The notes below the pieces were generated by a model. The model saw nothing but the letters and a program-made list of their open reading frames with translations. It had not been told where the DNA came from and did not search any database. The position numbers and the translations under genes were made by a program. Shown here piece after piece: positions 50,480 to 56,260 of a stretch of 64,000 nucleotides of DNA (position 1 is its first letter; the number at the start of each line of letters is the position of its first letter). The DNA comes from Gottfriedia acidiceleris (GTDB lineage Bacteria; Bacillota; Bacilli; Bacillales; Bacillaceae_G), in NCBI RefSeq assembly GCF_023115465.1, contig NZ_CP096034.1, positions 930,001 to 994,000 of the forward strand. The letters are read 5' to 3'.

Positions 50480-50704
50480 GAAGTTGTATAACACATTAAG
50501 GAGAAATGTGATTTTATGACTATACTGAGGTCTAATATGTGACTTAATATCCAATAAAGAAGTCGCACTTTACAATACATATATAACCATATATTCCCTA
50601 AAAAACCTGTACCTTTGTTTCCTTGTTAAACATGCATTTATCGCACTTCCAGACATATTTTCTTCACAATTAATTGGGTAAATAACAAAAAAATAAAATT
50701 TATC

Positions 50705-50733
50705 TTGCAATTCAAATTTAAAAAAAGTATACT
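50705..50733 (+). promoter_or_regulatory. SigA-type promoter for speD
   Basis: TTGCAA (50705-50710), 17 bases, TATACT (50728-50733). It predicts a transcript start near 50740 and a leader of about 129 bases. Confidence 0.65.
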
Positions 50734-50739
50734 AACTTT

Positions 50740-50868
50740 CGTGAACTTCTAAAAGTATAACTAATTACTTAAAGGGTTAGGACCTCTTTGGACTAACTTT
50801 CCCCCGTGGTAGTTGATCATACTTTCGCAATAGAAGTCATGACAAATTATTTTAAGGGGGAAATGAAT
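50740..50868 (+). promoter_or_regulatory. Structured speD leader with anti-Shine-Dalgarno complement
   Basis: ACTTCTA (50745-50751) pairs with TAGAAGT (50831-50837); AAAGTAT (50752-50758) with ATACTTT (50819-50825); AACTA (50759-50763) with TAGTT (50810-50814). Inside, GTTAG (50776-50780) pairs with CTAAC (50793-50797). TTTCCCCC (50798-50805) is exactly complementary to GGGGGAAA (50856-50863), which contains the speD ribosome binding site. These pairings are read directly from the bases; folding and function are inferred. Confidence 0.6.
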
Positions 50869-51255
50869 ATGGATACTATGGGTCGTCACGTCATTTCAGA
50901 ATTATGGGGATGCAATACAGAAAAATTAAATGATATGAAATTTATTGAGGAGACTTTTGTTGATGCTGCGTTACGCTCTGGTGCAGAAGTTCGTGAAGTT
51001 GCTTTTCACAAGTTCGCTCCTCATGGCGTTAGTGGTGTCGTAATCATTTCAGAATCACACTTAACTATTCACAGTTTTCCTGAGCATGGTTATGCAAGCA
51101 TCGATGTTTACACTTGCGGTGATAGAATTGATCCGAATGTAGCTGCAAACTTTATCGCTGAAGCTTTAGAAGCTGATACTCGCGAAAACGTTGAGTTACC
51201 AAGAGGAATGGGTCCCATTCAAGTTGATAATGTAAAAGTTGTAAATGGTAACTAA
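50869..51255 (+). CDS. speD: S-adenosylmethionine decarboxylase proenzyme
   Basis: 128 residues from ATG 50869, preceded by AAGGGGG with eight-base spacing; the frame is open further up but within the structured leader. Cleavage gives the pyruvoyl group at Ser63 in [20 protein letters not shown]. Conserved Cys15 (WGC) and the VYTCGD segment are present. It makes decarboxylated SAM, the aminopropyl donor for spermidine. Stand-alone, between gapB and nrdR. Confidence 0.95.
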
Positions 51256-51263
51256 AAAGAATT

Positions 51264-51293
51264 GAGAGAGGTGATTTTTCATCTCTCTTTTTT
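51264..51293 (+). terminator. Terminator after speD
   Basis: AGAGAGGTG pairs with CATCTCTCT (one wobble), followed by a T-run. Confidence 0.85.
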
Positions 51294-56055: not shown

Positions 56056-56193
56056 AGAAAAGAATACTTATTTGTTGAAGAAGAAGCACCCGCTTCTCAC
56101 CTGGATGACGCTTGAAGCTGTTATCAGGTAACAGAATCATTAATTACTTTGATACTGTCAGTGTGGGTGTATTTATATACCCACACTTTTTTG
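56056..56193 (+). promoter_or_regulatory. L20-type ribosomal protein leader with attenuator
   Basis: Between the promoter and infC lies a leader with several helices and a strong terminator hairpin: GTGTGGGT (56161-56168) with ACCCACAC (56179-56186) and a T-run. The GAAGCACCCGCTTCTC and CTGGATGACG segments are of the kind seen in Bacillus infC leaders that bind L20 and attenuate the operon. Identification is by position and recalled pattern. Confidence 0.75.
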
Positions 56194-56260
56194 TTGGGTT
56201 ATGATTGCTTCAACGATACAAATTAAGGTCATTCTTACAATACCTTGGAGGTGTTTTACT

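Follow-up and report, generated by a model that had tools for sequence, protein, structure and literature searches.

A conserved structured leader of speD in Bacilli, probably an undescribed riboswitch-like class controlling translation of SAM decarboxylase

The window analysed here, a 64,000-nucleotide stretch of the Gottfriedia acidiceleris genome, carries speD behind a leader that spans positions 50734-50868, with the ATG start codon of speD at 50869 (Table 1). Assignment of the target as S-adenosylmethionine (SAM) decarboxylase was confirmed by NCBIfam in the window and in three divergent loci. The consensus-like promoter proposed in the initial annotation is present (TTGCAA, 17-nt spacer, TATACT), and its hexamers recur, as judged by eye, in most rows of an alignment of 45 leaders; a promoter scan returned 5 promoter-like sites in the region, the speD promoter among them, versus 4.7 expected, and the call is therefore supported by conservation in relatives and not by the scan. 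A terminator search of the window found no terminator inside the speD leader, and control should therefore be translational; transcription attenuation was rejected on the same result, which covers the window's leader. A leader peptide appears unlikely, as TAA, TAG and TAA lie within the conserved core and the in-frame GTG and ATG starts of the window are not kept in relatives (by eye). A search of the whole window against Rfam 15 gave a single hit at the gathering score, outside the speD leader: the ribosomal protein L20 leader (L20_leader, RF00558, 87.7 bits) at 56072-56198.

Table 1 Features of the speD locus in the window
Feature	Position	Strand	Evidence
Sigma-A-type promoter of speD (TTGCAA 50705-50710, 17-nt spacer, TATACT 50728-50733)	50705-50733	+	Hexamers recurring in relatives; promoter scan
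5′ element TCGTGAACTTCT, 5′ strand of outer helix P1	50739-50750	+	TCGTGA in relatives; helix versus shuffles
5′ strand, distal part of P2 (AAAGTAT)	50752-50758	+	Fold with SD unpaired
5′ strand of P2 adjoining the core	50762-50768	+	Two-sided changes in relatives
Junction strand TTAAAGGG	50769-50776	+	RNAalifold; loop motif counts
Hairpin P3 (GTTAG 50776-50780 / CTAAC 50793-50797, inner CC/GG)	50776-50797	+	Changes in divergent members
Anti-Shine-Dalgarno tract TTTCCCCC	50798-50805	+	Sequence, loop-SD complementarity, folds
3′ strand of P2 (GTAGTTG)	50809-50815	+	Two-sided changes in relatives
3′ strand, distal part of P2 (ATACTTT)	50819-50825	+	Fold with SD unpaired
3′ strand of outer helix P1 (TAGAAGTCATGA)	50831-50842	+	Fold; weak comparative support
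Shine-Dalgarno (SD) GGGGGAAA, anti-SD partner	50856-50863	+	GGGGG 3′ of core in 172/172 type-A copies
speD, S-adenosylmethionine decarboxylase	50869-51255	+	NCBIfam TIGR03330 SAM_DCase_Bsu, 140 bits, cut-off 75.65
Terminator-like hairpin 3′ of speD	51264-51289	+	Terminator search

The segments of a three-part stem, ACTTCTA, AAAGTAT and AACTA at 50745-50763 and TAGTT (50810-50814), ATACTTT and TAGAAGT (50831-50837) 3′ of the core, were located as initially annotated, together with the inner GTTAG/CTAAC hairpin, and the described 8-of-8 match of the loop tract to the speD SD is exact, TTTCCCCC being the perfect complement of GGGGGAAA. Counting both strands, the window contains 4 copies of the 8-mer TTTCCCCC, two of which make up the anti-SD/SD pair, versus 1.29 expected, and at least 4 occurrences were reached in 5 of 100 shuffles; 8-mer complementarity alone is weak evidence, and the pair is credible because of its conservation rather than the 8-mer by itself. 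When the SD was forced to remain unpaired, the long stem was the nested optimum (-29.7 kcal/mol) and the outer helix P1 folded well, whereas in the unconstrained nested minimum free energy (MFE) fold (-34.8 kcal/mol) the tract pairs directly with the SD and the long stem is broken. The fold of 50735-50880 had a z-score of -2.62, with 3 of 200 shuffles equally good.

A blastn search with 50700-51000 matched 54 of 60 genomes, its own included, in 40 of 45 genera. The scan pattern for the core was found in 53 of these 54 genomes (own included) and a fuller core expression in 52; the one leader that the scan pattern misses (L009) retains this core but for an A-to-T substitution in P3. A pattern scan of genomes recovered at least 118 stretches with 119 copies, and 118 of the 119 listed copies lie upstream of a speD match, the exception (L145) being in a stretch that ends 62 bases after the core. 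The listed copies share the pattern by construction, and the invariance of their core is partly due to selection, from which the blastn set is free. Genera carrying the leader include Bacillus, Planococcus, Halobacillus, Exiguobacterium and Alicyclobacillus, and it is present in B. tequilensis (L091) and B. halotolerans (L110), close relatives of B. subtilis. One locus, from Bacillus sp. FJAT-42315 (L125), has two leader copies (334-362 and 899-927, approximately 565 bases apart) flanking a stretch of N; the first copy was paired by the script with the speD of the second, 660 bases on, and is directly followed by an N-interrupted speD start, possibly reflecting a duplicated or misassembled start of speD.

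A covariance model (R1) was built from 115 diverse copies, those of 172 that were kept in an alignment (A1) at under 90% identity. R1 matched 244 of 299 genomes of the order (93 of the 116 genera sampled there), 192 of 398 genomes of the class, with at least one false hit, and 9 of 398 genomes of the phylum, 8 of which belong to the own genome, order or class; the three samples overlap and one hit was counted per genome. A SpeD match was found in 275 of the 398 class-sample genomes. By eye, the only R1-positive class genomes without one were G545, a false hit with no speD in the locus, and G546, where the hit lies at a contig end. Among divergent R1 loci, 29 of 30 precede speD. In 38 genomes without an R1 match, laxer filters gave a best E-value of 0.2. 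One R1 hit (L235, E = 6e-4) was discarded as its locus has no speD, and hits L236-L243 (E = 0.2-0.47) were discarded on E-value alone. Overall, among the 275 genomes of the class sample that have speD, at least 229 carry a leader of this family before the gene (190 by R1, and 39 of 46 further genomes examined). The check for conservation across speD upstream regions thus came out in favour of the initial annotation, the structured leader being kept in hundreds of Bacillus relatives. speD was the only target seen for the element, and no polyamine gene was recognised by eye in the ORFs after speD at 15 divergent loci.

Covariation in P2 and P3 was computed on a sequence-only MAFFT alignment of 115 sequences. 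In the part of P2 adjoining the core, two-sided changes were found at 7 of 7 pairs, a value also reached by 33 of 500 shuffles. The number of two-sided cells in P2 (96 versus 31.2 in shuffles) and the covariation score (0.221 versus 0.118) were both matched by 0 of 500 shuffles, which ignore the relatedness of the sequences. Paired cells made up 91.8% of P2 with P3, and at most 52.5% when the partner was slid. P3 is invariant in alignment A1, partly since the search pattern fixes this hairpin. A survey that parsed 64 of 102 distinct loops found P3 as GUUGG/CUAAC in 13 loops and, in divergent members, as GUGGG/CUCAC in 7 and GUUGG/CCGAC in 1, with at least one pair lost in 5. In one member (L212), the P3 apical loop is enlarged by an insertion of approximately 50 nt. 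A DNA operator in place of an RNA element was considered unlikely, as P2 carries two-sided changes.

Relatives placed the helix next to the core in a different register, 50762-50768 with 50809-50815 (TAATTAC/GTAGTTG) and not AACTA/TAGTT; the layout of the annotated stem therefore stands, its innermost register does not, and its outermost helix is weakly supported. TCGTGA is present in at least 93 of 162 distinct type-A leaders, a lower bound given the limited upstream context, and P1 pairing was analysed in 93 of the 162. The longest helix with the 3′ segment was 6.02, versus 5.59 (sd 0.11) in shuffles, and helices of at least 6 pairs were found in 61 of 93 leaders versus 43.6 expected. Support from these comparisons for P1 as a family-wide feature is modest. 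The element TCGTGAACTTC, directly after the -10 hexamer, is kept in many relatives despite its weakly supported pairing, and may have another role, for example as an initially transcribed region, in 5′ end stability or in a second contact.

A second subtype (type B) was found among class genomes with SpeD and without an R1 match, 19 of 25 of which have a related leader before a SpeD of approximately 37-44% identity, with the layout UAGGAACCAGGAUUCACU, loop, AGUGAAUGACGUAGGUCCUAGC, then SD. Of these 19 leaders, 18 were read by eye (G330 being partly alike) and one (G445) was found by a second model, R2. No such leader was seen in the remaining six (G138, G164, G189, G320, G382 and G459), none of which has GGGGG by the start. 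R2 was built from 32 of 35 divergent leaders and intermediates (alignment A2; L252, L256 and L259 omitted) and matched 37 of the 38 genomes given to it, the miss being G362 and one match, G435, coming from the training set. Trained without the window, R2 found the window's leader at 50752-50866 (E = 6.5e-9). In the phylum, it matched 10 of 289 genomes at E up to 0.01, four of them outside the class; of these, the hit in G753 (L305, E = 8.7e-10) precedes speD, and L311-L313 (E = 0.003-0.006) were discarded as weak and without speD in the locus. As judged by eye, L305 and L206, the latter likewise from beyond the class, retain the stem with substitutions in its pairs. The type-B stem itself barely varies, with two-sided changes at 2 pairs and no more pair types than in shuffles.

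Six genomes of one family (G355, G369, G395, G405, G425 and G455) have two leaders each. In the five where both were read (all except G395), one is a long-loop form and the other a CUCCU form (L257/L270 in G355, L261/L269 in G369, L280/L318 in G405, L279/L316 in G425 and L278/L315 in G455), and each precedes its own speD paralogue where read. In type-B leaders such as L257 and L263, there are two potential partners for the 3′ strand GGUCCUAGC, the 5′ strand UAGGAACC and a GCUAGGA immediately upstream of the SD; this may be an additional switch helix.

In type-A leaders, the anti-SD tract of the loop can pair with the GGGGG before speD; all 172 of the 172 copies have GGGGG 3′ of the core. At least five contiguous Watson-Crick pairs between loop and SD were found in 95 of 95 distinct type-A leaders and in 59 of 64 distinct type-B leaders, versus 74.2 and 30.8, respectively, expected from dinucleotide-shuffled loops; the other five type-B leaders have fewer. 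Anti-SD and SD are nearly invariant outside one short-loop subgroup, in which each of the 13 CUCCU loops is accompanied by an SD reading AGGAG (11 cases) or GGGGAG (2 cases). Compensatory proof of the pseudoknot is limited because this variation rests on one or few evolutionary events. Duplex energies of 64 type-B leaders did not differ significantly from those of permuted partners (-15.70 versus -15.33, sd 0.23; 115 of 2,000 permutations as low), since the G-runs of other SDs likewise offer partners to C5 loops; the set comprised leaders with a matching anchor expression (73 rows, 64 distinct), with L299, L320, L321, L323 and L324 among those omitted. GGGGG also serves as SD in 67 of 786 ORFs not labelled speD (approximately 8%, from crude ORF calling, with at least 2 of the 67 being speD), and the unusual SD was rejected as sole evidence, such SDs being fairly common.

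The leader thus has a loop complementary to a tract 3′ of its closing stem, and this complementarity is kept in evolution. The predicted H-type pseudoknot that would hide the speD ribosome binding site is well supported by these comparisons as a layout, and concerted differences in loop tract and SD were seen in one subgroup. The proposed covariation check therefore gave a graded outcome, favourable for P2 and, in divergent members, for P3, modest for the outermost helix and limited for anti-SD/SD compensation. It is very likely that the leader hides the SD of speD. A local alternative to this pairing is suggested by GGG at 50774-50776, which is able to pair with CCC at 50801-50803; RNAalifold prefers the GGG before P3 paired with the anti-SD CCC (columns 25-27 with 52-54), making it a possible candidate anti-anti-SD. 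As raw counts, 91 of 95 type-A loops carry AAGG or AGGA within their initial 12 nt, as do 59 of 64 loops of type B.

These observations can be joined in a model of the speD leader as an RNA switch that works in cis on translation initiation. The long imperfect stem P1/P2 would carry a conserved core with hairpin P3 and the anti-SD tract; with the core folded around its signal, the anti-SD would pair with the SD downstream of the stem, and the resulting H-type pseudoknot would block ribosome binding. In the alternative state, local pairing would sequester the anti-SD, for instance with the SD-like AAGGG/AAGGA with which the loop begins, and speD would be translated. We infer that a small metabolite sets the state and turns speD off; spermidine, as the end product, or a compound closely related to it would be the most likely candidate, with decarboxylated SAM next. 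That the leader is a structured regulatory RNA is almost certain, and we favour, with some reservation, the model as a whole, a translational switch in cis with a metabolite-set pseudoknot on speD. A small-molecule ligand is itself reasonably probable; a polyamine in that role is a tentative suggestion. A conserved, structured, aptamer-like core is present in the 5′ leader of a metabolic gene, as in riboswitches, and complementarity and folds point to an expression platform overlapping the ribosome binding site. Translational feedback on SAM decarboxylase is the natural reading of this arrangement from sequence comparison, and the leader probably represents an undescribed riboswitch-like class exerting end-product control. 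The most specific form of this proposal is an undescribed riboswitch class, widespread in Bacilli and also present beyond them (L206 and L305), that comprises two or more subtypes (C5/G5 and CUCCU/AGGAG) sharing stem and anti-SD logic in different loops and that gates SAM decarboxylase in response to spermidine, decarboxylated SAM or a metabolite related to them; it has a slightly less than even chance of being correct.

Membership in a known class, either the spermidine riboswitch derived from SAM-I or another known SAM riboswitch, is suggested by the shared pathway and by the inclusion of speD among the targets of the SAM-I variant, as given in the available text of PMC10853860. However, no Rfam 15 family was detected in the leader of the window with E-values allowed up to 10, and none was detected in the leaders at 17 divergent loci with E up to 1; the hits listed outside the leader at those loci were to RNase P and, within RNase P, to Bacillaceae-1, or were weak. 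Known Rfam families including SAM-I were rejected for want of a covariance-model match, and membership in a known SAM class is highly improbable. The earlier statement that no described riboswitch matches the leader held for Rfam and for the literature searched, which held no description of the motif and had most subscription papers, supplements and bioRxiv outside its scope.

The main rival to a metabolite-set switch is autoregulation by protein, with SpeD or another RNA-binding protein binding the core and blocking translation. It would fit the restriction of the element to speD (118 of the 119 matches listed), the ORFs after speD at 15 divergent loci, where no polyamine gene was recognised by eye, and the 14.1-fold enrichment with Hfq of a 79-nt B. 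subtilis RNA between speD and gapB, labelled 'Unknown or speD leader region' in the available text of PMC3574147, although Hfq enrichment does not show function. The type-A core, however, is nearly unchanged where SpeD identity has fallen to approximately 42% (L207, L208). Metabolite aptamers also typically keep their core while the surrounding helices vary. Autoregulation by protein is considered rather unlikely. Folds that occlude the SD would also suffice with no ligand at all, the leader setting a fixed low level of translation or answering temperature, ions or an antisense or sRNA partner, and the nested MFE hides the SD unaided; yet a core kept in 93 of 116 order genera sampled exceeds the needs of simple occlusion, and this explanation is unlikely. 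The metabolite-set switch is therefore preferred.

The presence of one leader family before speD in most sampled class genomes having the gene offers an answer, direct and open to testing, to the question of how Bacilli set polyamine synthesis. Should the leader bind spermidine or decarboxylated SAM, a broad riboswitch class would be added to the polyamine pathway. Since close relatives of B. subtilis carry the leader, tests in this standard laboratory organism should be simple.

Among known systems, the translational SAM-II, SAM-III (SMK box) and preQ1 riboswitches are compact leaders in which a pseudoknot or anti-SD hides the SD, a likeness to the speD leader, which differs from them in its core and has no Rfam match. 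The odc1 motif (alphaproteobacteria, before ornithine decarboxylase, with a predicted pseudoknot) and the potE motif (before an antiporter) are also candidate polyamine-gene leader RNAs, set apart by their target genes and, for odc1, by its hosts as described in the available text of PMC8632094. The B. subtilis 'speD leader region' RNA is, in the text available, an Hfq co-precipitated peak without structure, conservation or mechanism, and is likened to the present leader by label and not by coordinates (PMC3574147). According to the available text of PMC10853860, evidence for polyamine riboswitches was unconvincing before rare SAM-I variants were shown to sense spermidine in related bacteria, and end-product control by RNA therefore exists in this pathway. 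That riboswitch, an off-switch with 13 examples, resembles the present element as a Gram-positive leader RNA with polyamine-pathway targets including speD, but is based on the SAM-I aptamer, whereas the element described here does not match SAM-I, is spread over hundreds of genomes and had speD as its sole observed target.
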